Virus record (IMG/VR): IMGVR_UViG_3300027710_001941
Span: 1-23,464 of that record
Source of the DNA: a virus
Strand: one strand, 5' to 3'
DNA length: 23,464 bases
Each line of letters starts with the position of its first letter. Within the stretch, counting starts at the first letter, position 1. A program made the translations under genes and the position numbers. Positions 2,672 through 17,688 of the stretch are shown one piece after another. Under the pieces are notes generated by a model. The model saw only the letters and a program-made list of their open reading frames with translations, had not been told where the DNA came from and did not search any database.

Positions 2672-5323
2672 TCAGTTGGCCTGTGGTTTGTTAAAAATCC
2701 AGCATTTGATGCTGCGTGGTTTATCACCGTTTTGATGAATGCTAGAGCTAACAACCCGATTGCTTTCTACAAAGCGATAACGCAGTGATGTGGGTAAAAT
2801 CCGTTTAAGTTCGGTTAAGTCACCCATCGGTTGTTTGGCAGCTAAGGCTTCTTCGGCAAAGTGATTTAGGTTGATGGCGATATAGTCTTTGCTGTGATGA
2901 GCGTGATTAAGTGTGGGTCTGTCGCGGCGGCTTTCGATGTAGTCGTACACATCCCAAAATTGTTGTACTAAGGGATGGTCTTGGTTAATGCGTTGTTGGC
3001 GTTCGATGGCTAGGTCAATCAGTGTGTTTTTGACCGATGATTTGAGTTCTTCGGTGATGGGAATAACCAAACCTAAAGCATCAACTAAGGCCATGATTTG
3101 GGCATGATTAAAACCAATACGCACGTTTTTGATGTCGGGACATTGGCTGATAAGCGTTTCATAAATGGGTGTTTGAGTGAGTACAATTTGCAGGATGTCC
3201 TTTTCAAGCGTTAATGCTTTGAGCATAAAACCACTTAATACATTCACGTCCATTTTGGCGATTTCTTTGGCCAGCTCACGGGTGGCACGTTGACCCCGTT
3301 TAAAGCCTAAATGAATCAAGCGTTCTAAGACGGCATCACTGGCGTTGACAGTCGCATTTTGAGCAATGACCATTGCCCCCCGAAAGGGTGGTTCGTAGGT
3401 TTCATTGCCACTGTTTTTAATACCGACAGCTCGCGGTGAGCGACCGTTGTATAACGGTTTAAGTTCGTCAAAGTCGAATTTTTTGGCTTTGCTGTCTTCG
3501 TCTCGGTCACCTTCCATCAGTACAATGGGTAAGTTGCCGACTTGTGCCATGTTACGGCTTCGACCTGAGAGCGTGGATTTTGAGGGGTCGAAACCTTCAT
3601 AACCTGTACGGCCAGCCAGTTTCCATAAAAATTCAATGAGGGTGGTTTTGCCTGCCCCTGGTTCGCCAACGATTTCTAAAAAAGGATAGCTTTGTTGGTG
3701 GTGACGAATTTGCTCGGCAAAAAAACTGCCCAACCAAAATGCTAAAGCGACGATACCTTTGTCACCAAAACAGGTATGTATTTTAGGAGCAAAGCTGCTG
3801 TCAAACTCTTTGAGTTTATGATTAAGCTGTAAATTGACCGATTGGTTTAGGCTTTTGAGATTGATTTTACCTAAGTCAAAATAGTCTTCGTTGTTGAGTT
3901 GATAGATTTTGCCTTCTTTAACGGCAATCTTGTTAAAGACGTAAGTGCTGTATTCTTTGCTGTAGCCAATAAAGTCGATGGTTTCGACCGTTTTAATGTT
4001 TTCCACTTTATACCTCAAAAAATTATCAAGTTGGTGGCCATTGCCTGTGTAAAGTGCGCCGCCTGCAATGCTGAGTAAGCGTTTTTTAAACTCAGAATTA
4101 CTGGCGAGCTGTGCGCCTGTGAAGGTGTTTTTGATTTGTTTGCCATCGTGAAAAGTGATGCGGAAGTAGTACCAGCTCTCGTCTGTGAGTTTGCTTTCTA
4201 AAAAGTACAGGGGCGTTGGGCAGCAGCTCGCAATCTCGGTGATGTTGCCACTGGAGGCCAATGCTTCGTCACGCATTGCGTCATCGTCAGAGTCTTCTTT
4301 GCGTAAATCACCGAGCTTTTTTTCGTAGGCTTCGAGGTCGAGCTTAAACCAGTACAAGCGGTTTTTATGGTCAAAGGTAAACGCACGGCGTTCGGTGTAT
4401 TTGTAAATTAGCAGGGCTTTTTCGGTGGAGGTTTTGGCGGTGAGTAAGTTGCCATAGTAGCGATAGGTTTCGATATCCTTTGGTGATAGCTTGCCCATTA
4501 GGTGCAAGTCGTTCCAGTCTTGGCTTTTGCCTTGACTTGTTTTGGGGGCTTGTGCGGCTACGCTTGGCCAACCGTCTGCAATGGCGCGTTCCATCCATTT
4601 TTCAATGGCTTTGTGACCAGCAGGGTCGTTATCCATTGCCCATACTAATGTGGGTCGGGCGATGTTGTTAGCAAGACATTGAGCAGCAAGGGCTTTTAAG
4701 GCGGTGCTGGGGTAGTTGCCACTCGATAGCGTGGAAACCGACCTGATGTGGTTATGTTCTAAAGTGATGGCGTTAAAAATGCCTTCGGTTATCCATATTT
4801 CTTTGGCTTGGCTTAGGTCTACATTGGGCAGTGTCCACCACAAGCCGTCATAGTTCCAACCGTATTTAAAGTTGGCTTTCCGTGGTTTGAAGCGTTCGGG
4901 CTTGTCAATAAGTCGTTCCCAATAACCATCGGCGAAGGGAAAGCGTACTGTGGCAGAGCCTATGCCTAAGTCACGACTAAAATAGTTATCTTGGCTGTAT
5001 AAGCCTTTTATTTGGTTAAGGTCAAAGCCACGGGCTTCTTTTAAATAAGCATCGGCGGCGGCATTAGGGTGTTTGTCGTCTGCTTTAAATCGGTCACTCC
5101 ATGATTCAAATAAATCAGGATATAGCTCACGCAATGAGCCTTCGTAACTGCAATTATTTAAGCGACCGCATTTAATGACCCACGGAGCTTCGGCACTGGC
5201 AAATAGCTCTTTTTGATGACAAGACGGGCATCGGCCTTCTTGTAACCATTTGTTTTTATGTTTCTTAAAGGCGAAGTCAGCCACGAGGCGTTTAAGTGCC
5301 TCGTCTAAAATCATCGGATTCAT
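2672..5323 (-). CDS. Phage primase-helicase (zinc finger, Toprim, AAA+ helicase)
   Basis: An 883-aa replication protein combining primase and helicase. The N-terminus has a four-cysteine zinc ribbon (C32-P-S-C35, C52, C58). A Toprim domain follows, with EIWITEGIFNA (E180) and LVWAMDNDPAG (D231, D233). The C-terminal half is a helicase of the DUF927/SF3-like type: Walker A GEPGAGKT (553-560), Walker B VLMEGD (601-606), sensor IAQNA (653-657) and a probable arginine finger in AVLERLIHLGF (R668). The layout recalls the P4 alpha protein, which primes, unwinds and binds origin iterons. No separate iteron-binding domain is obvious here. It lies in the early operon, seven bases downstream of the 112-aa gene. 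It probably acts at one of the two iteron arrays in this window. Confidence 0.9.
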   Translation of the reverse strand: MNPMILDEALKRLVADFAFKKHKNKWLQEGRCPSCHQKELFASAEAPWVIKCGRLNNCSYEGSLRELYPDLFESWSDRFKADDKHPNAAADAYLKEARGFDLNQIKGLYSQDNYFSRDLGIGSATVRFPFADGYWERLIDKPERFKPRKANFKYGWNYDGLWWTLPNVDLSQAKEIWITEGIFNAITLEHNHIRSVSTLSSGNYPSTALKALAAQCLANNIARPTLVWAMDNDPAGHKAIEKWMERAIADGWPSVAAQAPKTSQGKSQDWNDLHLMGKLSPKDIETYRYYGNLLTAKTSTEKALLIYKYTERRAFTFDHKNRLYWFKLDLEAYEKKLGDLRKEDSDDDAMRDEALASSGNITEIASCCPTPLYFLESKLTDESWYYFRITFHDGKQIKNTFTGAQLASNSEFKKRLLSIAGGALYTGNGHQLDNFLRYKVENIKTVETIDFIGYSKEYSTYVFNKIAVKEGKIYQLNNEDYFDLGKINLKSLNQSVNLQLNHKLKEFDSSFAPKIHTCFGDKGIVALAFWLGSFFAEQIRHHQQSYPFLEIVGEPGAGKTTLIEFLWKLAGRTGYEGFDPSKSTLSGRSRNMAQVGNLPIVLMEGDRDEDSKAKKFDFDELKPLYNGRSPRAVGIKNSGNETYEPPFRGAMVIAQNATVNASDAVLERLIHLGFKRGQRATRELAKEIAKMDVNVLSGFMLKALTLEKDILQIVLTQTPIYETLISQCPDIKNVRIGFNHAQIMALVDALGLVIPITEELKSSVKNTLIDLAIERQQRINQDHPLVQQFWDVYDYIESRRDRPTLNHAHHSKDYIAINLNHFAEEALAAKQPMGDLTELKRILPTSLRYRFVESNRVVSSSIHQNGDKPRSIKCWIFNKPQAN

Positions 5324-5330
5324 ATTTTTT

Positions 5331-5669
5331 CTACTGAGTGACAGAGCGCACAGTCAGGCTATTGGCTGTGTTGATAAGGTCTTGTACCGTAAAATAAATG
5401 CGGCGTTTATGTTGTCGGTCGTGAATGACAACGAGGCTACTATTGGAACGGTCAATGTCCAGTTCGGCGGCACACAAGCTGCTTTCGTAGTGGGCGATTT
5501 CTTTAATGGCCACTTTAACACCCACATCGGAGGGGTAGCCTTTAAGTTTGAGTTCGTTGGCGATAGCCTGAATCAGTTGTTCACGGTGACCATTAAGATA
5601 AGCATAGTAATGCTGCTCGATGTAGGTTTTGGCCATGCCGTGAGCCATGTTGTAGTCGAGATTAGACAT
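5331..5669 (-). CDS. Hypothetical phage early protein, 112 aa
   Basis: I do not recognise the family. The protein is soluble and mixed alpha/beta by eye, with an N-terminal helical half (MAHGMAKTYIEQHYYAYLNG) and a C-terminal half rich in beta-prone stretches (SSLVVIHDR, RRIYFTVQDL). It has no Cys pairs, membrane segment or nucleotide-binding motif. The start overlaps the stop of the Ogr-like gene by eight bases (ATGTCTAA), with AAGGAG about eight bases upstream, so start and translational coupling are secure. Its stop is seven bases before the primase-helicase start. A replication accessory role is suggested only by position. Confidence 0.8.
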   Translation of the reverse strand: MSNLDYNMAHGMAKTYIEQHYYAYLNGHREQLIQAIANELKLKGYPSDVGVKVAIKEIAHYESSLCAAELDIDRSNSSLVVIHDRQHKRRIYFTVQDLINTANSLTVRSVTQ

Positions 5670-5994
5670 CTAATTCTCCTTGTACTTCTTGCTGTTTGAG
5701 CGTGAATTCGCGTTGATTAAGCTGTGCTAATAACTTTTCTTTTTTGGCTTTTAGATGTTGCGATAAGGGCAACATCGGTACACCATTTTTGTTTTCGGCA
5801 AGGGTGAGTGCGCGTAGCGGTTCTATGGCGCATACCCATGTTAAACCGCAGGTTGCAGAGTCACAGCGATAGGTGACTTCGCGGTAAAACTTGCCTTTGC
5901 TAAGTGCGGTCATTTTGATGACGTAGGCAACATGAGAACAATAAATACACTCAGTGCGAATATGACTCGTATTGTTGTAGCGTTTGCGTGTCAT
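5662..5994 (-). CDS. ogr: Ogr/Delta-like zinc-finger late transcription activator
   Basis: A 110-aa protein (start chosen at the ATG overlapping the upstream stop as ATGA; an in-frame ATG 12 bases earlier is less likely). It has a single C-x2-C ... C-x4-C finger: C16-IY-C19 and C44-DSAT-C49, the last followed by GLTWV as in Ogr/Delta proteins, where the second pair is followed by a G-hydrophobic-aromatic stretch. In P2 and P4 these proteins bind upstream of late promoters and contact the RNA polymerase alpha subunit. The C-terminal 45 residues form a charged, probably coiled-coil extension (LKAKKEKLLAQLNQREFTLK) that makes it longer than P2 Ogr (72 aa). P2 keeps ogr next to gene D; here it is inside the early operon. 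Confidence 0.78.
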   Translation of the reverse strand: MTRKRYNNTSHIRTECIYCSHVAYVIKMTALSKGKFYREVTYRCDSATCGLTWVCAIEPLRALTLAENKNGVPMLPLSQHLKAKKEKLLAQLNQREFTLKQQEVQGELDV

Positions 5995-7357: not shown

Positions 7358-8392
7358 TTAGGCCGCTTTTAAGCCAAGCGTTTTGCGTAGTTGTGCTAAC
7401 GCATCATCGCCTTTGGCCAATTGCTCGGCACTTTTAGCATTAGCTTGTTGTTGCTGTTTTTGTTCGGCCAGTGTTTCCCATAAGGGCTTAACAGGTTGAA
7501 TAAACTCGGCAGCCAGTTTTGTGGGTTGAGGCGATGGGTTATCCAGTGGCTTATCAACTGGCTTGTCTTTTTCGCGTTTGAGCCATAGGGCATATTGATA
7601 AATCCATTCGTCACGGGTGTTTTTAAAGTCTTTGGCAAGGTAATGAGCAACAAAGTGATTCAGTGTGTTGCTGGTGTGTTTGGTCATGGGGACTTCGAGT
7701 TTGGCCATAAACGGTTCTAGTTCGTTAGGCTCAACCTTAAAGTCAAAGGGCATACAAAATTTTGTTGTTGTGTGTGGTGTAACGCTTTTAGGCGTTACAT
7801 CGAGCCTGCTTTGGTTATTTAAAAAGTCTTTACTTACAACAACTTCTTTTTCTAAATTCTCTAATTTTAAATCTAAATCTCCCCCCTTACCCCCCAATGT
7901 AACGGTTACAGGCATTACAGTGGCGTTACTTGTAACGGTTTGAGGCGTTACATCGGCGTTACAAGGAGGTGTTACATCGTGCGTTACGGTTGTTGTTACA
8001 TTGGCTAAGGCTTTTTGTTTTGCTCGATGACGCGCTACTCGTTCGGCACTGCTAGTACGTTGGCGTGGTGGTTGAGTGGTGGTGTCTTTGGGTTGTTCGG
8101 TGTCGCTGTAAAGCTCAACCAGCATGGGGCTGTAGTAGCGGTTGTCTTGCGAGTTGAGTCTAAATTGTGACAGGACGGCATTTTTAATTTTTTGCCAACG
8201 TTTGACTGTTAAGCCCAACCATGAGGAAAGGGCTGTGTCGTCATTGGGTATAGATAAGGCGGGCGTTTGTTTCATGGCCAAACAAAGCAGGTCTAAAAAT
8301 GCGGCTTTGACCAGTGGGCTGGCTGTGAGGCGAAAGCCAAATATATAGCTGTCGTGAGCAAACTTTAACCACGGGAGGCTTTGAATGTTCAT
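7358..8392 (-). CDS. Phage replication initiator, O-like
   Basis: A 344-aa protein. Residues about 15-98 resemble the N-terminal domain of DUF1376-type phage replication proteins (LTASPLVKAAFLDLLCLAM; IPNDDTALSSWLGLTVKRWQ; YYSPMLVELY), followed by the basic SSAERVARHRAKQK motif common in that family. A low-complexity linker rich in V-T and V-T-P (about 131-207) is encoded by the iteron array. The C-terminal domain (about 225-272; KHTSNTLNHFVAHYLAKDF, IYQYALWLKRE) looks like a DnaT-type domain that contacts helicase or single-stranded DNA. The tail is Gln/Lys-rich. The ATG overlaps the previous stop as ATGA. The layout, DNA-binding N-terminus, origin in the linker and helicase-recruiting C-terminus, mirrors lambda O without visible sequence identity. 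Confidence 0.8.
   Translation of the reverse strand: MNIQSLPWLKFAHDSYIFGFRLTASPLVKAAFLDLLCLAMKQTPALSIPNDDTALSSWLGLTVKRWQKIKNAVLSQFRLNSQDNRYYSPMLVELYSDTEQPKDTTTQPPRQRTSSAERVARHRAKQKALANVTTTVTHDVTPPCNADVTPQTVTSNATVMPVTVTLGGKGGDLDLKLENLEKEVVVSKDFLNNQSRLDVTPKSVTPHTTTKFCMPFDFKVEPNELEPFMAKLEVPMTKHTSNTLNHFVAHYLAKDFKNTRDEWIYQYALWLKREKDKPVDKPLDNPSPQPTKLAAEFIQPVKPLWETLAEQKQQQQANAKSAEQLAKGDDALAQLRKTLGLKAA
7778..8000. repeat. ori: GTTAC iteron array inside the initiator gene, likely origin
   Basis: Eleven GTTAC/GTAAC motifs occur in about 220 bases. GTTAC starts at 7794, 7905, 7925, 7947, 7958, 7971, 7983 and 7995; GTAAC at 7779, 7899 and 7932. From 7947 on the spacing is 11-13 bp, close to the helical repeat. 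Two copies form TGTAACGC-N6-GCGTTACA (7778-7799) and one forms TGTAAC-G-GTTACA (7898-7910). An AT-rich stretch (about 7808-7880) lies between the outlying pair and the main cluster, a candidate unwinding element. The motif encodes the V-T linker of the protein, so part of the repetition could be coding, but the inverted copies and phasing argue for binding sites. Confidence 0.68.
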
Positions 8393-8871: not shown

Positions 8872-8951
8872 GGCTGCGAAACCAATGGTGACAGGTTAAG
8901 CAGGGTTCGCAGTACCAGCAACCACACTGGCCAACCTTTCGGTTGCCCCAC
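8872..8951 (-). promoter_or_regulatory. Structured leader of the replication operon with sRNA-complementary boxes
   Basis: On the minus strand the leader holds CTGCGAACCCTG (8912-8901), GGTTTCGCAGCC (8883-8872) and a GAAA-loop hairpin CAACC-GAAA-GGTTG. The first two can pair with each other (9 of 10 positions). GGTTTCGCAGCC is an exact 12-base copy of a stretch in the predicted small RNA just upstream, and CTGCGAACCCTG complements that RNA at 11 of 12 positions. A further GTGGGG (8951-8946) complements the 5' hairpin of the RNA. No convincing promoter lies between the small-RNA terminator and the first gene, so the operon may depend on read-through. Confidence 0.5.
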
Positions 8952-8991
8952 CTAACCCATCATAAAACGCAGGCAGGCGGAAATTTAGCAT

Positions 8992-9013
8992 AAAAAAAGT
9001 CGCAAGCGCGACT
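8992..9013 (-). terminator. Intrinsic terminator of the predicted small RNA
   Basis: A perfect 6-bp stem AGTCGC/GCGACT with loop GCTT, followed on the minus strand by seven T. It stands about 160 bases upstream of the first replication-operon gene, so leftward transcripts must read through it to express the initiator. Confidence 0.88.
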
Positions 9014-9069
9014 CATGCTTGTGGTTGACTATGGCAGGCTGCGAAACCTGTCTACCCATGTGGGGTAGT
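8992..9069 (-). ncRNA. Predicted ~78-nt regulatory RNA, P4 CI / c4-like
   Basis: The minus strand has a consensus -35, a short transcribed region with two hairpins, CTACCC-CACAT-GGGTAG (9068-9052) and GACAGG...CCTGCC (about 9051-9034), a single-stranded stretch, and a textbook terminator AGTCGC-GCTT-GCGACT (9013-8998) followed by T7. No ORF fits. The loop of hairpin 2 contains GGTTTCGCAG, complementary to the following leader. In P4 and P1/P7, a short RNA of this size processed or terminated in the leader of the replication/antirepressor operon pairs with the leader and causes premature termination, which gives immunity. The assignment is by architecture; the start point is approximate. Confidence 0.6.
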
Positions 9070-9075
9070 GCGGAT

Positions 9076-9104
9076 AGGATGGCGTGATAAAAAAAGGTTG
9101 TCAA
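9076..9104 (-). promoter_or_regulatory. Promoter of the predicted small RNA
   Basis: A perfect -35 TTGACA (9104-9099) is followed after 17 bases by CATCCT (9081-9076), a weak -10. The start is expected near 9069, giving an RNA of about 78 nt up to the terminator. Confidence 0.55.
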
Positions 9105-9111
9105 GGGGTTG

Positions 9112-9131
9112 TGTATTAAAATGTTACACTT
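9112..9131 (+). promoter_or_regulatory. 20-bp motif, copy 1, upstream of the kinase operon
   Basis: TGTATTAAAATGTTACACTT; a copy with one difference lies at 12844-12863. It contains the inverted half-sites TGT-N11-ACA. It stands 170 bases before the kinase start and just upstream of the small-RNA promoter, which points the other way. P2 late promoters carry TGT-N12-ACA as the Ogr site, so a site for the Ogr-like protein is one idea. A regulator specific to the cargo is another. Confidence 0.5.
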
Positions 9132-9301
9132 ATGGTCTGATTAAAATAGAGGAGTTAGATTAGAAAACACTAAAATTATAGTACAAAGTATATATAGCTG
9201 ATATAGGTTGATTTGATATGCTAAATTTGCCTAAAAAATAAGTCATTGAACGTAAGGGTGGCTCTGATGAAAACCTCAAATATGACTCTAGGATAAAATA
9301 A

Positions 9302-10468
9302 ATGCTTGATGATTTGTTAATAGAAGCCGTTGTTAATGGTAGTGTCCTTGAAGAAAATTATACTGATATAAGTGTTGTAAATGTGGTAGCAGGGCAGCCT
9401 AAACGAGGATTTTTCTCTATTATATTCAAAGCATTCGATACAACAAGCAATGTAGAAGTTGCGGTCAAGTTTTTTTCACCTATACATAATAGTGATACAT
9501 ATCGCATGTTATCATTCGAGCGTGAAGCTAAAATATTAGAATCCCTAAAAGATAAAAAAAGATGCTTACAAATAAACACTGCCCTTAAAACTGCGACTTT
9601 AAGTTTAAGTTTAGCAAATAGTCACCGTCCATTGAATTTGCAAGTGAAATATTTCGTAACTGAATGGATTGATGATGATATTGATGAGTTTTTCTTAAGC
9701 AATAGCTCTAATATTGATATTTTAGATAGATTGAGAGTATTTCGAGATATTGTATTAGCTGTAGCCGCTTTACATAGAAGTAATGTTTGTCATCGTGATT
9801 TGAAGCCTGATAACTTAAGAAAAGCACTAAGACATAAAGAGAAAGTAATTGTAGCCATTGATTTAGGAACTGCAGCACTTTTGGATTCGCATAATATTAT
9901 ACCTAGCTATACTTATTGTGTTGGTATGATCCCTTATGCAGCACCTGAGTCAAAATGTGGTTTGGCGGGTATAAGAAGACTTGATTCTTATGCTGATATA
10001 TTTTCTTTAGGTTGTATGTTTTACGAGTTATTCAATGTTGATTACTATTACGACAAATTTGATAATATAAATCCAAATGTGGATGCAAATGTATTAACAT
10101 TGTTTGGTGCTACAATTGCTCGAGAAAAAAAAGAAGAGGATAAAATAAATCGCTTGAATTGTCTGCTTGATATACATGCAAAAGGAGTTGCGAATGTAAG
10201 TGTTTGTGGATGTAACTCTCTAATTCCTTCTGCTACAAATGGAATAATGCAAGAGCTTTTGGATGGTCTTGTTGCTTTCGATTACCGAAAAAGATTTAAC
10301 AACTTTGAGCATATTATTCGCAAGGTTGATATCATTTTAAAAGTTCTTACGCATCAGAAATTATATCAACATCGTATTAAGATTAACAATGCATCTAGAA
10401 ATAATAGGATTGCAAAACGCGCTAATGTATTGACAGATAAATTGAGATCATTGGTAGCTGGGAGTTAA
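9302..10468 (+). CDS. Hanks-type Ser/Thr protein kinase
   Basis: A 388-aa soluble kinase with the key subdomains: a glycine-loop region (GQPKRGFFSIIFKA, about 31-44), VAVK with the ATP-binding Lys (K56), an alpha-C helix Glu (E73 or E75), the catalytic loop HRDLKPDN (164-171, base D166), DLG in place of DFG (D187), an APE-type motif in PYAAPES (211-217) and the F-helix Asp in ADIFSLG (D231). The glycine loop is degenerate, but catalytic residues are intact, so an active enzyme is likely. There is no membrane segment or PASTA domain, so it is not a PknB-type cell-wall sensor. About 140 C-terminal residues are not assigned. The TPR gene starts three bases after its stop. The gene is AT-rich and lies in the cargo region. 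Some known anti-phage systems, such as Stk2, use kinases, but I cannot assign this one to a named system. Confidence 0.9.
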   Translation: MLDDLLIEAVVNGSVLEENYTDISVVNVVAGQPKRGFFSIIFKAFDTTSNVEVAVKFFSPIHNSDTYRMLSFEREAKILESLKDKKRCLQINTALKTATLSLSLANSHRPLNLQVKYFVTEWIDDDIDEFFLSNSSNIDILDRLRVFRDIVLAVAALHRSNVCHRDLKPDNLRKALRHKEKVIVAIDLGTAALLDSHNIIPSYTYCVGMIPYAAPESKCGLAGIRRLDSYADIFSLGCMFYELFNVDYYYDKFDNINPNVDANVLTLFGATIAREKKEEDKINRLNCLLDIHAKGVANVSVCGCNSLIPSATNGIMQELLDGLVAFDYRKRFNNFEHIIRKVDIILKVLTHQKLYQHRIKINNASRNNRIAKRANVLTDKLRSLVAGS

Positions 10469-10471
10469 GAG

Positions 10472-12319
10472 ATGTTAATTGATGATGATATCCCAGAGAA
10501 ATCCAATCTTAATTTGGAGAAACCTATCTTTCAGGTAATTTTGCCTGTAGATGCAAATATTCCTCTTTATATAGATTTTTCCCCAAGAAACGACTATGAA
10601 GACGGGGTGTTTCTACCAGATTTGAATAATTTTACAGTTGTTGACAAGGACTATCATAAAACGTCCAATTATAGTGATTTATTCTTGAGTGAATACGAGT
10701 TATTGAGCAAGAAGAGTGATCGTTTTTCTGACTCTCCTGTGTATCTAAATAAGATGGCTTCTATTGCTCGGCGACTAGGTAAATATGACTTAGAGCGTTT
10801 CTATATTCAGAAAGCCATGTATTTAGTTGAAAATGATTATTTTTTTAATAAATATGGTGAAAGTCTAATCTTATCTGGGGAGCTGAATAGTGCTGAAAGA
10901 CATTTTAAATCACGAGATTTTAGTGAAAACTTTGGGGCTAATCTACGTTTGGCTTATTTTGATGTGCTCAAAGGAAGTTATGCGACTGCAAAAAAATATA
11001 TTATTAGATCCATACTAATTCAACCCAATGATTATAGCTCATATTTGTTTCTTGGCATTCTTGAATTAATTACTAAAGAGCCAAACTCTGCAATTCGATG
11101 CTTTAGATTAGCATCCGAGTTGCGGCCATCGTCATCAATAGCGCATTTAAATATTGGAGTTGCATATTTAGGAATTGGAAATAGGGAAAAGGCATTTAAT
11201 TCATTAAAACTCGCGGTATCACTTGATCCGCTTAACTCTAAAGCATTAGTTCTTCTCGTAGATGTAGCTGTTTCTATTAAAAAGTCTGATCAGGTTATAT
11301 CATTTCTAAAGTATTATTTGTCTATTAAAGATGAAGATGTTCTTGTTCATGAACGGCTTGCTCAGACTTATTTTGAATTAGGCGACTGCCACTCAGCACT
11401 GTATACCTTAAAAAACCTAAAAAGAGTCGTAGGAAGTGATCCAGTTCGGGTTTGGAATAATATTGGTGTCGCCTATCATCGAATGGGTATTAAGCATCGC
11501 AATGATGCTTTTAAATCGTTTAAAAATGCAATTTCTAATGGTATTTGTAATAATCGTGACAGTTTAATTGCCGCTAGAAATGTTTGTATTATGCTTGCTG
11601 ATGTAAAGGAATACCATACGTTACTAGGTCTTACTAAGGAGTTGTTAACTTATGATGTTCAAAGTGAGCTAATTTCTGATGTTCAGTTTTCAGACTTTTA
11701 TGTTTTTCATCTTTTGGGATTGGCAAATTTAAAAAAATTTGATGATGCCGTTGTATTCGCCGAAAATATATTATCGATAGAGCGAGCACATGATGCATTG
11801 AAGATATGGGTGGCTAGTTGGCTGATTTCCCATTACGCTCTTGAAGGGCATAAACATGCTATAAAATTGGCTGATGCATTCTGCGATATATTGCCAGTGA
11901 TTGATAAACAAATCGGATATGAAAGAATGTCTACCTTAATTAATAGTATTGTTTTCGCATATGTTGAAGCTGATTGTACAAATAAAGCAATAAAATTATT
12001 GCCAAAACTATCAAATTATGTCCATAAAATATCATACCCTACGGCTACATTAGGACTTTTTCATTTAAGAAACGGAAATATTGAGCGTGGGAAAGAATTA
12101 TATAATGAGTCAATTAGGCTGGCTGATTATGACGTTAAGGACAAGATAAGGCAGAAATTAAATTATGAACTTGCTAAATATTGGTTTAGTCAGGGAGATG
12201 TTAGGAATGCCATTAAATACATAGAAAAAGCAATAGAGACTAAAGGAGGGGTGCCACAAATTGAGTCTGCCGTAAAGAAATTTAATGCTAAAATAATAAA
12301 AGCAATAAGAGCTCCTTAG
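10472..12319 (+). CDS. TPR-repeat protein partnered with the kinase
   Basis: A 615-aa, largely helical protein. Canonical TPR units are seen at about 186-219 and 222-254 (AHLNIGVAYLGIGNREKAF, LAVSLDP), about 292-326, about 328-360 and near the C-terminus (about 563-598, LNYELAKYWFSQGDVRNAI). The intervening helices suggest a continuous solenoid from about residue 90. The first 90 residues are acidic and unassigned. There is no signal peptide, membrane helix or enzymatic motif. GGGAG within the kinase end serves as its ribosome site, so the two genes form one translational unit. A TPR solenoid usually binds proteins; here it may be the kinase's substrate, scaffold or sensor. Confidence 0.88.
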   Translation: MLIDDDIPEKSNLNLEKPIFQVILPVDANIPLYIDFSPRNDYEDGVFLPDLNNFTVVDKDYHKTSNYSDLFLSEYELLSKKSDRFSDSPVYLNKMASIARRLGKYDLERFYIQKAMYLVENDYFFNKYGESLILSGELNSAERHFKSRDFSENFGANLRLAYFDVLKGSYATAKKYIIRSILIQPNDYSSYLFLGILELITKEPNSAIRCFRLASELRPSSSIAHLNIGVAYLGIGNREKAFNSLKLAVSLDPLNSKALVLLVDVAVSIKKSDQVISFLKYYLSIKDEDVLVHERLAQTYFELGDCHSALYTLKNLKRVVGSDPVRVWNNIGVAYHRMGIKHRNDAFKSFKNAISNGICNNRDSLIAARNVCIMLADVKEYHTLLGLTKELLTYDVQSELISDVQFSDFYVFHLLGLANLKKFDDAVVFAENILSIERAHDALKIWVASWLISHYALEGHKHAIKLADAFCDILPVIDKQIGYERMSTLINSIVFAYVEADCTNKAIKLLPKLSNYVHKISYPTATLGLFHLRNGNIERGKELYNESIRLADYDVKDKIRQKLNYELAKYWFSQGDVRNAIKYIEKAIETKGGVPQIESAVKKFNAKIIKAIRAP

Positions 12320-12361
12320 TCTATTGTAATACTAGTTGGCTTTAAATATATAGTATGGGGG

Positions 12362-12367
12362 TTGACA
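12362..12367 (+). promoter_or_regulatory. -35-like TTGACA before the DUF2511 lipoprotein
   Basis: A perfect TTGACA lies 50 bases upstream of the start at 12417. No good -10 sits at standard spacing (TTACAT is 23 bases on), so this is a weak promoter candidate. Confidence 0.3.
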
Positions 12368-12416
12368 AAAAAAGCTCACCAATTAACCCATTACATGATT
12401 TTCAAGGACGAAATAA

Positions 12417-12818
12417 ATGCACCGCATCACCATAACCCTTGCTTTGGCTTGTACTTTACAAGCCTGCTTTGACTCTTCACAAGAAGCCTTTGCTGCATCT
12501 TTAGGCACAGTCTTAAACAATAGCTTTTCTATACCACTACAATCTAAGCCACCAAAGCCAGTTACATCTGCACCCGTATCACGCCAATCTTATGGTGAAG
12601 ATTGGCCGTTTATTGTCGATTTAGGAACTATCGGTTGTGAGGACGGGCTGTACCCATACTTTAAAGCCAAAGGCCACATCTACAAACTCACCGAAATGGC
12701 CAAACCCAACTATGAATCAATAGCTACTATTTGGCGCGATAATCCCAACAAAGTAGGTACAAAATATAGCCTGCTCATTGTTATTGATACAGCGATGGGG
12801 TTTTGTGATTTGGGGTGA
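12417..12818 (+). CDS. DUF2511 (YebY-like) lipoprotein
   Basis: A 133-aa protein with a lipoprotein signal (MHRITITLALACTLQAC; lipobox LQAC, Cys17), a Ser/Pro-rich linker (about 30-58) and a C-terminal domain starting near EDWPFIVDLGTIGC. That domain has the Trp-Pro entry, the two Cys (G-C-E and the C-D-L-G end) and the final beta-strand of the DUF2511/YebY type. It should be exported and anchored in the envelope. AAGGA lies eight bases before the ATG. Lipoproteins carried by temperate phages often alter the host surface or block superinfecting phage; this is inference. It lies 97 bases after the TPR gene. Confidence 0.75.
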   Translation: MHRITITLALACTLQACFDSSQEAFAASLGTVLNNSFSIPLQSKPPKPVTSAPVSRQSYGEDWPFIVDLGTIGCEDGLYPYFKAKGHIYKLTEMAKPNYESIATIWRDNPNKVGTKYSLLIVIDTAMGFCDLG

Positions 12819-12843
12819 TTGCAAACAAAAAAATTAAATCCTC

Positions 12844-12863
12844 TGTATTAAAATCTTACACTT
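12844..12863 (+). promoter_or_regulatory. 20-bp motif, copy 2, upstream of the second lipoprotein
   Basis: TGTATTAAAATCTTACACTT, 19 of 20 identical to 9112-9131 and in the same orientation relative to the gene that follows. A shared decamer, AGTTAGATTA, follows at 12912 here and at 9153 after copy 1, though at different spacing. The shared motif suggests common control of the kinase operon and this lipoprotein. Confidence 0.5.
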
Positions 12864-12947
12864 TAATTAGGGGTAGGGTATTGTTAGGATGATGGTTGTG
12901 CATTTAGGATTAGTTAGATTAAGTTGTGGATTTTAGGTGGATTATCT

Positions 12948-12966
12948 TTCCTTATTAGTTAAGGAA
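12948..12966 (+). promoter_or_regulatory. Inverted repeat just before the second lipoprotein ribosome site
   Basis: TTCCTTA and TAAGGAA form a perfect 7-bp inverted repeat with a 5-base spacer, ending six bases before GGGAG. It could be an operator or an RNA hairpin affecting translation initiation. Confidence 0.4.
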
Positions 12967-12983
12967 TAAAAGGGAGAATGATT

Positions 12984-13760
12984 ATGAAAAATTTATGTTT
13001 GGTGACTTGTTTTATATTGCTGTCTGGATGCTCTGTTTTAGATTTTGATGGCAAAAATGTTAGTAAGTTTGGTGCAGCAGATTTATTTAAACAACCAATA
13101 GAAGATATTGATCTCATATCAATAATCACTAAAAGCGAAGTAAACAGTAAAGGATTAAGTCCTAAAGATTTTTCGGGAAAATTTGATGCTGTGTTGGCAA
13201 GTTACACTCCAGCTAATACATTGGAACGAAATCGGATTCAAGACAGAATCATTATGGCTTCAAACGAATTATGTGAAAGTTATAAGATTACCCTTAAAAA
13301 AAAGCAGTCGAAAAATAATTTTTGGTGGGGAGCAGCAGCTACGACTTTTGGTGCAGCAGGTTCGGTTATAAATGGTGCTCATGCAGCAAAAAATTTGTCG
13401 GCTTTGTCAGGTTTGTCTTCTGGAGTTAGGGCTGAATATAATCAATCATACTTTTCGGATGTGGCATCCCAAGTAATAACTAAAGGGATAAATGCTAGAC
13501 GCTCTGAAATACTAGAAAAAATAATGACAGCTAAAAAAGCGACATTAGAGGAGTACACAGTTGAAAACGCGATTGCAGATGCAATTACATATCATGGAGC
13601 ATGTAGTCTTATTGCAGGTTTGGAGCAAGCTGATTCAGCAATAACAAAATTGAATACCACTAATAATGTTGGTCTTGATGCTTTAAATGCTAATGCTATT
13701 TTTAAAGCAAAGGTAAGTGATGCAGGTGGGGGCGGTTCTTCGCCTACTACGCCGCAATAA
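12984..13760 (+). CDS. Lipoprotein of unknown function
   Basis: A 258-aa protein. The start is set at ATG 12984 because GGGAG (12972-12976) is correctly spaced there and too close to the ATG at 12978. The lipoprotein signal reads MKNLCLVTCFILLSGC with lipobox LSGC. A helical region with conserved-looking Arg/Asp/Cys (RNRIQDRIIMASNELC) is followed by a Gly/Ala-rich hydrophobic stretch (about 112-135, FWWGAAATTFGAAGS) that may be a membrane-inserting hairpin, then another long helix (RRSEILEKIMTAKKATLEEY). The C-terminus is Gly/Ser/Pro-rich. I recall similar hypothetical lipoproteins in proteobacteria but no function. An envelope role such as superinfection exclusion is possible. Confidence 0.72.
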   Translation: MKNLCLVTCFILLSGCSVLDFDGKNVSKFGAADLFKQPIEDIDLISIITKSEVNSKGLSPKDFSGKFDAVLASYTPANTLERNRIQDRIIMASNELCESYKITLKKKQSKNNFWWGAAATTFGAAGSVINGAHAAKNLSALSGLSSGVRAEYNQSYFSDVASQVITKGINARRSEILEKIMTAKKATLEEYTVENAIADAITYHGACSLIAGLEQADSAITKLNTTNNVGLDALNANAIFKAKVSDAGGGGSSPTTPQ

Positions 13761-13831
13761 TTTAGCAGGCTGGGCTTTAATCACTTCAGAATTTTTTGTT
13801 TTGGCTAAATTCATATGAGTTTTAATTGACT

Positions 13832-14791
13832 ATGCAAAATATTCAAAGGTATTTTGGCTATGAAGTATGCTTGATGGATGAGTTAGACCCAGTTAGACTC
13901 TCTGTTTTAAAAGAGAAAGCAGAAAAAATTAGAGCATTACATGATTTTTCTGAACAGAATTATAATGTCTATTTTCATCAGTTAAGTTTAATACCCGATA
14001 CTAGGCATTTTTCTTCATATTTATCAATTGAAGAGAAAATATTAAAGTTGGATTTAACATTTTCAGTAAACCAAAAACAAGTTAAAAATCGAAAAATAAA
14101 GCTATTCAATTTTCTGTTAGACTCAGAATATACTAAAGATGTAAAAAAATTTTTTACAGCAGATTTAATAAGTTATGCTCTTACTGGCTCTATGTTAAAA
14201 AATGAGTACGGTTTTAGAAACGAAATAGTTACATTTGTAGCCAAAAGTTTAAGAAAAGACCATAGAAAATTAAAAGTATCAGTCAGTTGCCAACCAACTG
14301 AGTTAATGAGAGGTATTCTAACTAAAAAAATTGATGCACACCTTACACAAGTTGATTTTAGGTTAGATGGTAAGAACGTCAGTTTACTTTATAAAAAGGT
14401 AAGTAATAGCTTCACACAGTTAGAACATAAGGGGTATATTGTAATGAATAAGTATATAAATCATGGACAAGTGGTTGCCCAAGGTGAAAATGCCCTTGGT
14501 ATTGGTAATACTTTAAATCAGCAGCAAGCGATTCCACTTGCAGAAATGCAGCAACTTCGTGCAGAGTTAATACTATTAAGAAAACAGCTTAAGGCTATGG
14601 CAGACACCGAGAACGTTTTACACGATATGACTTTAGGTGAAATAGCATCAGCTCAGGTCGCAATAGAAAATAATGACTCCAATACAGCCATAGAACATTT
14701 GAAAAAATGTGGCCAGTGGGCATTAGAGACCAGTCAAATAATAGGTACTACCTTATTAACTACATACCTTCAAGGTTATATGGGTGGCTAA
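13832..14791 (+). CDS. Hypothetical cargo protein, 319 aa
   Basis: The family is not recognised. The start at ATG 13832 is uncertain: the ribosome site is weak, TTG at 13826 is in frame, and ATG 13874 is a later option. The N-terminal part (about 1-200) is a charged mixed alpha/beta region without signal peptide. Near residue 208 there is a sequence of the form INHGQVVAQGENALGIGNTLNQQQ, a Gly/Asn-rich linker, then a coiled-coil (LAEMQQLRAELILLRKQLK) and a C-terminal helical domain (LGEIASAQVAIENND...) ending in a hydrophobic segment (IIGTTLLTTYLQG). Such a C-terminal module recurs in various bacterial multi-domain effector and sensor proteins, which suggests oligomerisation. It converges with the OLD gene. 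Confidence 0.65.
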   Translation: MQNIQRYFGYEVCLMDELDPVRLSVLKEKAEKIRALHDFSEQNYNVYFHQLSLIPDTRHFSSYLSIEEKILKLDLTFSVNQKQVKNRKIKLFNFLLDSEYTKDVKKFFTADLISYALTGSMLKNEYGFRNEIVTFVAKSLRKDHRKLKVSVSCQPTELMRGILTKKIDAHLTQVDFRLDGKNVSLLYKKVSNSFTQLEHKGYIVMNKYINHGQVVAQGENALGIGNTLNQQQAIPLAEMQQLRAELILLRKQLKAMADTENVLHDMTLGEIASAQVAIENNDSNTAIEHLKKCGQWALETSQIIGTTLLTTYLQGYMGG

Positions 14792-14929
14792 TTGCTATTA
14801 TGGAGAAAAAATACTGAGATTAGTTGTTATGCATTAATGACTAAATTCAAAATTTATTTGTATCTTCGGTGTATGATGAGCGGGGGGGCTAGTTATTAAT
14901 GGACAACACCTCGGCCTCCCTTGATTCAA

Positions 14930-16444
14930 TTATGTTTTAGTGCGTAGGGCTATCAATTGTGATTCGATTCGTTTGAGGTCTGTGATAATTTCGTTGGCAG
15001 ACTCACAAAGTGCAACTTTCCCCCTTTCTTCATCTTCATCAAGCCATTCAAGAACTTTATTAAGTAATAAGCGTTTCGCTTCACGTTTTTTTTGTTTATC
15101 AACAATACCTAATACTTGTGTAACCTCATCACTAAAGTTTTCTGGGTAATACTTCTCGAAATTGTCGTGAGTATAAGTAGCGAAACGATCAGATAGCCAA
15201 GATGGAAATTTCACCTTTAATTCTGCTATTGTTTTTTTGCCAATATCATCTCCATCTGCACGAACCCACGCAGCATCTCGATACGCTTCTTCCAAGTGAG
15301 TGAAGAGGGCAAGCCTTTGAAAGTCCCTAAATGTTGGTTCAATTTTGCTTATGCCGTTTACAGCGAGAGTTCGAATTCGCGTAAGCTTTGGGGTAAACCA
15401 AGGAATAAGATAATCACGAATGATACGTTCCGCTGATGACTCCTCAAGTATTAGCCAGCCATCCCATAAATCAAAGTCTGAAAAAGAATAACCTAGACTA
15501 CGAAGAACTTCTAATCGTGCATGAGGTGTGTTTTCAATAAGAGTCGCCTCAGACTCAGTTGGTAATATATTTGGCTTAGCATGAATATGATAAATCATGC
15601 TGTTTTTGGTAGAGCCTAAATGAGTTAGAACAATATTTGAATGTGTCGAGATAACAAATTGATTATGCTCAGAGCTGGCAATAATTAAGTCTAATAAAGC
15701 TTTAAGGGCTGCTGGGTGTAAGTCATTTTCTGGTTCTTCTATTAAGAATAATTTACCTTTTGCAACAGCTAGCTCAGCAAGTAATGCTGCAATATTTGCA
15801 ACCCCTTCTCCCATTTGGGTAATAGGTAAGGCCTCCCCATTGTCTAGAAAAATCCCAACTGTGTGGCCATTACCAGAAGAGTAGGCAGTGACTAAGAAAC
15901 CTAGTATTGACATACATGCATCGGCATATTGTCGATGAAAAGGGTAGGCTGCGTTTGATATTCTATTCAGTTTGGCTGCTAAATAGCCCATATGAGGCTC
16001 TATAGATTTGGTATTTTTATCATTTACGGTATCTTGATAGCCATATGATTTTCTTCTAGATAAAAATGGAATTATAAAGTGATTCGGTTCTTCCCGAGAG
16101 AAGATATTTTTTTGTAGTGGCTCATCATTATCCTTTAGTGTATATCCATGTGTAGTGCCAGAAATTTTTTCAATAGTAAGCCTTATTATTTTGTCATCAG
16201 TGGAGTATTTCCACTTTGGATGGTCAGAAGTATTCGTTAGTACGAAATTTATATAAAAAGCTCTAGCTCCTACGCGTATATCAAAAAGTGGGGAGTCACA
16301 GCCTTCTTGCATCAAATAAAGTGCTTTTATAATTGACGATTTGCCTGTGTTATTTTCACCAATTAAAATGTTAATTGATTCAAGATCAATATTTAATTTT
16401 TTAAAGGAGCGAAAATCAGATAGATATATAGATTTGACTTGCAT
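14930..16444 (-). CDS. OLD-family ATPase-Toprim nuclease
   Basis: A 504-aa protein. The ABC-type ATPase part has Walker A GENNTGKSS (29-37), the signature region MGEGV (211-215), Walker B LFLIEEPE (232-239) and the His loop STHS (266-269). The C-terminal part looks like a Toprim nuclease: WLILEESSAE (E334, E339) and VRADGDDIG (D397, D399). P2 Old, the founding member (about 586 aa), blocks lambda growth in P2 lysogens. AAGGA lies eight bases before the ATG. No UvrD-like gajB or AriB-type partner is next to it, so it fits class 1 (stand-alone) OLD. It is likely a phage-borne anti-phage gene in the cargo block between the 319-aa gene and gene D, reading with the tail operon. The 138 bases beyond its 3' end contain no gene, only a G7 run. 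Confidence 0.85.
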   Translation of the reverse strand: MQVKSIYLSDFRSFKKLNIDLESINILIGENNTGKSSIIKALYLMQEGCDSPLFDIRVGARAFYINFVLTNTSDHPKWKYSTDDKIIRLTIEKISGTTHGYTLKDNDEPLQKNIFSREEPNHFIIPFLSRRKSYGYQDTVNDKNTKSIEPHMGYLAAKLNRISNAAYPFHRQYADACMSILGFLVTAYSSGNGHTVGIFLDNGEALPITQMGEGVANIAALLAELAVAKGKLFLIEEPENDLHPAALKALLDLIIASSEHNQFVISTHSNIVLTHLGSTKNSMIYHIHAKPNILPTESEATLIENTPHARLEVLRSLGYSFSDFDLWDGWLILEESSAERIIRDYLIPWFTPKLTRIRTLAVNGISKIEPTFRDFQRLALFTHLEEAYRDAAWVRADGDDIGKKTIAELKVKFPSWLSDRFATYTHDNFEKYYPENFSDEVTQVLGIVDKQKKREAKRLLLNKVLEWLDEDEERGKVALCESANEIITDLKRIESQLIALRTKT

Positions 16445-16691
16445 TGCTGTTCCTTAGTGTTTTTGAATTTATAACCACCCTATTTATATTTTTTCTTGAA
16501 GAAGTTCGTTGAAAATTTAAAATATGAAAGATATTTAAATTAAACTGACATACTAATTCAAATAAATAAAATAATAATGGAAATTTCTGGTTATATTAAC
16601 TCCTCATACATAGTATTATATTGTTATAGTAATTAACAGGGGGAAGACTATGATTTTTTCTATTATCAATGTCGATTGAGTTGGCGTTATA

Positions 16692-16706
16692 TGGTTTATT
16701 AAACCA
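16692..16706. repeat. Palindrome over the D stop codon
   Basis: TGGTTTA-T-TAAACCA, a perfect 7-bp inverted repeat with one central base, overlaps the stop codon of D. There is no T run on the minus strand, so it is at best a weak end to the tail transcript. The 250 bases upstream of OLD (16445-16691) are AT-rich and hold no supported gene. Confidence 0.4.
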
Positions 16707-17688
16707 ATGTCTCCATCTCCAACCCTGTCGTTAGCCCTGAGCTACTCAAACTGTGAGTGGCTTTAATCACCAACCACGAATGATTATCTATTTCAGATTT
16801 CCAACCATTGAGATTGGCGGGTGTCTCAGGGATGATTTCAGGCCGACCAAGTGCCAATGTCAGGCTAAAAGTGGCTGCATTGCGTTGACTGCGTTTAAGT
16901 TCGGCATTGGCGGCGTATTTGGCTTCGGCTTCGCTTTTATAGGTTTTACGAATCACTTTGAGTTTATCTGCTTTGCCAACCATCACCTCTTGCCGTTTTG
17001 CCCCTTTTTTATCACCCCAGTAAGCCTTAACGCCTGTATAGCCACTTTCACGCTCCACAAGGGTATAGCGGTGTTGGTCGCCATCTTCACGGGTAATGGT
17101 CACGGGTGGTATGGGTTTACCGCTAACAGTGGTGGCTTGACCTGCTTTAAACAGCATCAAATGGCCTGATTTAACCGTGACAATGGCATCGTAGTCTTTG
17201 GCCAAACGAGACAATAGGTTTAAGTCGCTTTCATCGGTTTGGTCAACATGGGCAATGTTGATGCTGGCAAGCTCTTTACTGACTTTGGGTGTTAGCTTAT
17301 GGGCTTTGGCAATGGTGGCCACAATCTCGCCTAATGTTTTGGCGTGGTAACTGGTGGCTTTTTTTGCGTGAATGTTATCCTTAAAGTCTGCGCTGCGCGC
17401 TTTAATGGTCAGTTTGTCGGGTGAACCTGAATGCTCCACTTCATCAACGATAAATGTGCCTTTGTTAATGAGTGCGCTATCTGTCCAACCGAGTGATAAC
17501 TGAATCACCGCGCCACGTTTTGGCAAGGCGAGGGCATTGTCGTGGTCATCAAGTACCAGTTCAAGTTCGTCTGCCTCAAGGCCGCGATTATCGGTAAGCG
17601 TGAGGGATTCTAATCGGTCGTGGATTTTGGCTAAAATATCAATGCCACCCACCACCAATTTAAAATCAGGTTCGTGATGGCCGCTCAT
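16699..17688 (-). CDS. D: Tail protein gpD (P2 late control D; hub/spike component)
   Basis: A 329-aa homologue of P2 gpD, the baseplate hub-like tail protein related to T4 gp27 and VgrG. The N-terminal PDFKLVVGGIDILAKIHDRL with LTLTDNRGLEADELELVLDD and RGAVIQLSLGWTD is characteristic, as are DESDLNLLSRLAKDYDA in the middle and the QRNAATFSLTLALGRP and HSLSSSGLTTGLEMET segments at the end. Length is near that of P2 D (387 aa), a little shorter. The start overlaps the U stop (ATGA). It is the last tail gene. In P2 ogr follows D; here the OLD-type gene does. Confidence 0.95.
   Translation of the reverse strand: MSGHHEPDFKLVVGGIDILAKIHDRLESLTLTDNRGLEADELELVLDDHDNALALPKRGAVIQLSLGWTDSALINKGTFIVDEVEHSGSPDKLTIKARSADFKDNIHAKKATSYHAKTLGEIVATIAKAHKLTPKVSKELASINIAHVDQTDESDLNLLSRLAKDYDAIVTVKSGHLMLFKAGQATTVSGKPIPPVTITREDGDQHRYTLVERESGYTGVKAYWGDKKGAKRQEVMVGKADKLKVIRKTYKSEAEAKYAANAELKRSQRNAATFSLTLALGRPEIIPETPANLNGWKSEIDNHSWLVIKATHSLSSSGLTTGLEMETLV

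Follow-up and report, generated by a model that had tools for sequence, protein, structure and literature searches.

Protein kinases have precedents as phage defence components. The staphylococcal Hanks kinase Stk2 is reportedly used in phage protection, and a prophage-encoded tyrosine kinase is said to cause abortive infection; PMC9122126 lists references for both. The described arrangement that comes closest to the gene pair analysed here is listed in PADLOC under the name PDC-M71, a kinase (A) together with a TPR protein (B), which is itself only a defence candidate. In the open-licence literature, we found no paper naming PDC-M71 and no description of an anti-phage pair made of a kinase and a TPR protein.

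The preliminary description of the pair knew of no system made of exactly a cytoplasmic kinase and a 615-aa TPR solenoid in a P2-like phage. Since PADLOC already lists a kinase with a TPR protein, this combination is not new as a kind; the pair itself is not a member of PDC-M71. As discussed below, the pair probably forms a two-gene defence system against superinfecting phages that is carried as prophage cargo.

The kinase and TPR genes in a mosaic phage

The window, which is the whole stretch of 23,464 nucleotides that was analysed (IMG/VR record IMGVR_UViG_3300027710_001941, positions 1 to 23,464), contains the following features:

2672 to 5323, minus strand: primase of the PHROG 1139 type, assigned by PHROG match, common to Pseudomonas phages such as Dobby
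7358 to 8392, minus strand: replication protein gene (rep), one edge of the hotspot
8900 to 16698, no strand assigned: variable cargo site, from the rep-side genes to the tail gene gpD, occupied in related phages by other candidate defence systems
9302 to 10468, plus strand: Hanks-type Ser/Thr protein kinase, 388 aa, ATG start, catalytic residues intact, basic C-terminal tail, no transmembrane stretch
10472 to 12319, plus strand: TPR alpha-solenoid protein, 615 aa, ATG start, acidic N-terminus, C-terminal repeat motif also seen in one PDC-M71B protein
12002 to 12319, plus strand: C-terminal part of the TPR protein, its best-conserved part and the part aligning to PDC-M71B
12417 to 12818, plus strand: DUF2511 ORF with a short signal-like start
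12978 to 13760, plus strand: lipoprotein-like ORF, 260 aa, with the motif LSGC
13826 to 14791, plus strand: AT-rich ORF of 321 aa, flanked by the lipoprotein-like ORF and the OLD-like gene
14930 to 16444, minus strand: OLD/GajA/AriA-like ATPase with a C-terminal Toprim-like region, best PADLOC matches AriA and NsnB
16699 to 17688, minus strand: P2-type tail protein gpD (PHROG tail family), the other edge of the hotspot

The kinase and TPR reading frames have exactly the coordinates, ATG starts and strand first reported for them, and the gap between them in the ORF list is three bases (GAG), the two genes being encoded as a single unit. The sequence GGGAG is found directly 5' of the ATG of the TPR gene, and promoter and terminator scans gave results at chance level.

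The kinase matches the Pfam family Pkinase (E value of 7.6e-24, residues 35 to 333) and has the catalytic residues K56, E75, H164-R165-D166, K168, N171, D187 and A214-P215-E216, bearing out the earlier claim that K56, D166, N171 and D187 are intact. All of these residues are unchanged in a 39%-identical kinase from a Moraxellaceae metagenome-assembled genome (MAG), which is described below. The kinase departs from the usual motifs in having DLG for DFG and a glycine loop that is down to a single glycine. An AlphaFold model of the kinase, built from two sequences, was unusable (pLDDT of 38). The TPR protein is matched by many Pfam TPR units (TPR_8 with an E value of 1.7e-19 and TPR_2 with 8.4e-17), and its AlphaFold model folds into an unbroken alpha-solenoid from about residue 65 to 589, with a pLDDT mostly between 70 and 90 and the acidic N-terminus unmodelled. 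The fold search with this model resulted in general TPR and superhelical proteins only, giving no functional hint. With a hydropathy window of 19 residues, no transmembrane-like stretch was found in either protein.

Matches to PHROG tail families were obtained for the sheath protein (1e-127) and for gpD (1e-139), and the tail genes are of the P2 type and follow the order FI, FII, E, T, U, D of a P2-like contractile tail. Relatives of the PHROG 1139-type primase, 39 to 48% identical, occur in phages that include those of Pseudomonas and Escherichia, and therefore the replication module is not P2's own. The phage, first described as P2-like, keeps that name for its tail only and is a mosaic of a P2-type tail and a different replication module.

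The kinase, the TPR protein, the lipoprotein-like ORF, the 321-aa ORF and the OLD-like gene have a GC content of 0.32 to 0.37, compared with 0.42 to 0.48 for the tail genes, the DUF2511 ORF being the exception within the AT-rich cargo (0.43). The placement of the kinase and TPR genes in a phage cargo block was thus correct, the block being the AT-rich interval between the rep side and gpD. The OLD-type neighbour was confirmed by both Pfam and PADLOC; its protein shows, by eye, a Toprim-like pattern E...G...DGDD. This gene of the cargo site is likely to serve in defence separately from the pair and may act as a single-gene system. The 321-aa ORF has no match in Pfam, PADLOC, PHROG or NCBIfam. 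The DUF2511 and lipoprotein-like ORFs may be cargo that acts at the envelope or in superinfection exclusion.

A genome from the same family as the Moraxellaceae MAG contains a prophage whose gpD is 82% identical and whose sequence is that of the viral record L022, and we therefore consider a Moraxellaceae host likely for the window phage.

Comparison with PDC-M71 and other defence kinases

The search with PDC-M71B led to a true PDC-M71 locus in another genome (G646, locus L011), in which the kinase gene is followed by the TPR gene with an overlap of 8 bases. As in this locus, the kinase gene of the window lies directly 5' of the TPR gene. Gene order and coupling are the same in three loci, namely, the window with its 3-base gap, the MAG with an overlap, and G646 with the 8-base overlap.

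The TPR protein of the window matches a single PADLOC family, PDC-M71B (49 bits, 7.8e-14), and does so over a C-terminal stretch covering positions 383 to 510 of the 515-position profile, whereas the true member reaches 294 bits over positions 1 to 498. Generic TPR controls (n = 4), which scored at most 34 bits, matched the N-terminal half of PDC-M71B instead. The motif ATxG[LF]xxxRxGxxExGxxxY, which was defined from these same sequences, is present in the C-termini of the window, MAG and G646 TPR proteins and was not found in any other locus retrieved up to that point. In the pairwise comparison with the window TPR protein, one generic TPR control scores as high as the G646 protein, and no significant match resulted when an alignment of two TPR sequences was compared, as a profile, with the TPR protein of G646. 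On PDC-M71A, the window kinase scores 53 bits over positions 53 to 244 of 352, compared with 225 bits over positions 6 to 345 for the true member, and this score is lower than those on PD-T4-6 and mad6, so that PDC-M71A is neither its best nor a full-length match.

Distant homology to PDC-M71 is likely. Because the match to PDC-M71B is C-terminal only and the kinase fits PDC-M71A no better than other models, the pair is not classed as a PDC-M71 member and is best described, from its profile matches, as rare and as either a divergent relative of that candidate or a parallel to it.

The best PADLOC kinase matches are the defence kinases mad6 and PD-T4-6, although the matches of the window kinase to defence models mostly reflect the generic kinase core. 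The top score is for mad6 of the MADS system (85 bits over residues 35 to 261), whereas the NCBIfam model MAD6 gives 58 against a cut-off of 460, and the MADS gene set was not found among the cargo proteins scanned. PD-T4-6 shares the kinase core with the window kinase (80 bits) but is a single-gene system without a TPR partner, and only residues 35 to 247 of the window protein align with it. The Mokosh protein MkoA matches with 57 bits, covering only the kinase part of a 1112-position model, and the Mokosh partner gene is absent beside the window kinase. The match to Stk2 is weak and falls short of an Stk2-level assignment (33 bits over positions 125 to 238). We know of no TPR partner for Stk2.

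Relatives of the pair and the gpD-rep interval

The genome-contig search with the kinase resulted in a single match, the Moraxellaceae MAG (locus L002), with 39% identity. Here, the start of the TPR gene overlaps the 3' end of the kinase gene, the TPR gene then runs off the contig, and the last 85 residues of the TPR relative are found on a second contig of the same MAG. The identity to the window TPR protein is about 33% for residues 1 to 458 and rises to 52 to 53% for residues 524 to 608. The MAG pair is adjoined by genes for HsdS, HsdR (1454 bits), a type IV restriction enzyme (283 bits) and an S24-type peptidase. With restriction genes of types I and IV next to it, the MAG pair therefore sits in a defence island.

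The preliminary description would have been contradicted by kinase and TPR genes that are not linked in other genomes; the MAG pair, at 39% and about 33% identity, is linked. Recurrence of the pair in other prophage cargo sites, which it proposed to look for, was not found in viral contigs, phage records or plasmid records. The recurrence seen consists of one orthologous pair, with its TPR gene split over two contigs, and one distant PDC-M71 pair. With the kinase profile, 1 of 299 Moraxellaceae genomes was positive, which is the MAG itself, and a sample of 399 genomes of the phylum gave no further match. Viral contigs searched with kinase and TPR queries, either single sequences or alignments, and also with the TPR C-terminus contained no relative of the pair, in scans that need exact short peptide matches and can miss distant relatives. 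In phage and plasmid records, the TPR protein had no match and the kinase had generic kinase-core matches only, and the pair was not found in E. coli genomes searched by DNA. TPR matches in four other genomes (L012 to L015) were rejected as relatives, being generic TPR proteins without an adjacent kinase.

Using gpD and rep as anchors, we located the equivalent interval in related phages. In the phage L043 (gpD 94% and rep 78% identical), the interval holds PDC-M11A/B (451 and 172 bits) at positions 4382 to 5795. In L022, the prophage of genome G759 with the 82%-identical gpD, it holds PDC-M53A/B (769 and 244 bits) at positions 12346 to 15238 and also carries an HSDR_N-type protein and a HicB-like antitoxin. 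In L055 (gpD 76% identical), a PDC-S49-like KAP NTPase at positions 3579 to 5321 adjoins gpD in a locus that is incomplete and lacks the rep edge. With PDC-M11, PDC-M53 and the KAP NTPase found in relatives, the gpD-rep interval is therefore a hotspot of candidate defence genes, in agreement with the earlier remark that phages often carry anti-competitor systems in such cargo blocks. A hotspot of this sort has also been described for P2-like phages of E. coli, where it lies elsewhere, namely from gpA to gpQ (PMC9122126).

The PDC-M11A/B pair of L043 and the PDC-M53A/B pair of L022 are strong, full-length candidate defence pairs in their own right. The genome with the KAP NTPase locus belongs to the set of Moraxellaceae genomes analysed.

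Proposed function of the pair

The location of the MAG pair in a defence island, the gpD-rep hotspot and the OLD-like neighbour all argue for a defence role of the kinase and the TPR protein, as do the gene order common to three loci, the unchanged catalytic residues, the well-conserved TPR C-terminus and the fact that defence kinases are the best PADLOC kinase matches. This role, for which the context gives moderate support, is better supported now than when it was proposed. As a possible mechanism, the TPR protein would hold the kinase inactive or recruit the target of the kinase, and it would respond to an incoming phage by detecting one of its products or activities, with the conserved C-terminal repeats as the probable site of detection. 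Upon detection, the kinase would phosphorylate a host (or phage) protein, and growth or phage production would stop, so that the infected cell releases no rival phage, as in abortive infection. The exact direction of signalling between the two proteins is proposed with less confidence than the defence role itself. The TPR protein is conserved most strongly in its C-terminal repeats, suggesting that these make the key contact. A basic kinase tail and an acidic TPR N-terminus are found together in the window and in the MAG but not in G646, which is a hint that the tail may dock on the TPR N-terminus.

A role outside phage defence has to be weighed against this. Most bacterial Hanks kinases are regulatory, and the cargo also includes the lipoprotein-like ORF (12978 to 13760) and the DUF2511 ORF (12417 to 12818), which would suit lysogenic conversion, with the kinase and a TPR scaffold altering host physiology (stress, envelope or growth control) without acting directly on phages. 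However, the sole orthologous pair is in a restriction-rich island, the hotspot repeatedly holds defence candidates, and presence in 1 of 299 Moraxellaceae genomes is the rarity expected of mobile defence genes and not of regulators, which makes lysogenic conversion unlikely in our view. The tight gene pairing, and the HicB-like antitoxin genes at the same site in related phages, could also point to a toxin-antitoxin-like module for prophage maintenance, in which the kinase is a growth-stopping toxin, the TPR protein is its antidote, and any anti-phage action is secondary or absent. Usual antitoxins are small, whereas the partner here is a 615-aa solenoid; moreover, the putative toxin gene comes first and the MAG copy adjoins restriction genes, so that we regard such a module as slightly more doubtful than lysogenic conversion.

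That two unrelated accessory genes became neighbours by chance is very improbable. TPR and kinase domains are both common, and TPR proteins retrieved by loose similarity lack an adjacent kinase, but the adjacency is kept at 39% and 33% identity in a wholly different genomic context. Within the defence reading, the pair might even represent a separate, undescribed class of two-component anti-phage kinases, which could move between prophage hotspots and chromosomal defence islands. In this class, direct recognition of a phage protein by a solenoid sensor would activate a Hanks kinase in the cytoplasm. The tie to PDC-M71 would then be convergence or very distant ancestry. We put this forward as a speculative possibility of low probability.

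Further defence systems of Moraxellaceae phages could usefully be sought at the gpD-rep site. If the proposed mode of action is true, the pair would be a compact two-protein system in which sensing by the TPR protein is separate from shut-off by the kinase, and both the phage trigger and the phosphorylation target would be findable. It would also provide a divergent relative for comparison with the PADLOC candidate PDC-M71.
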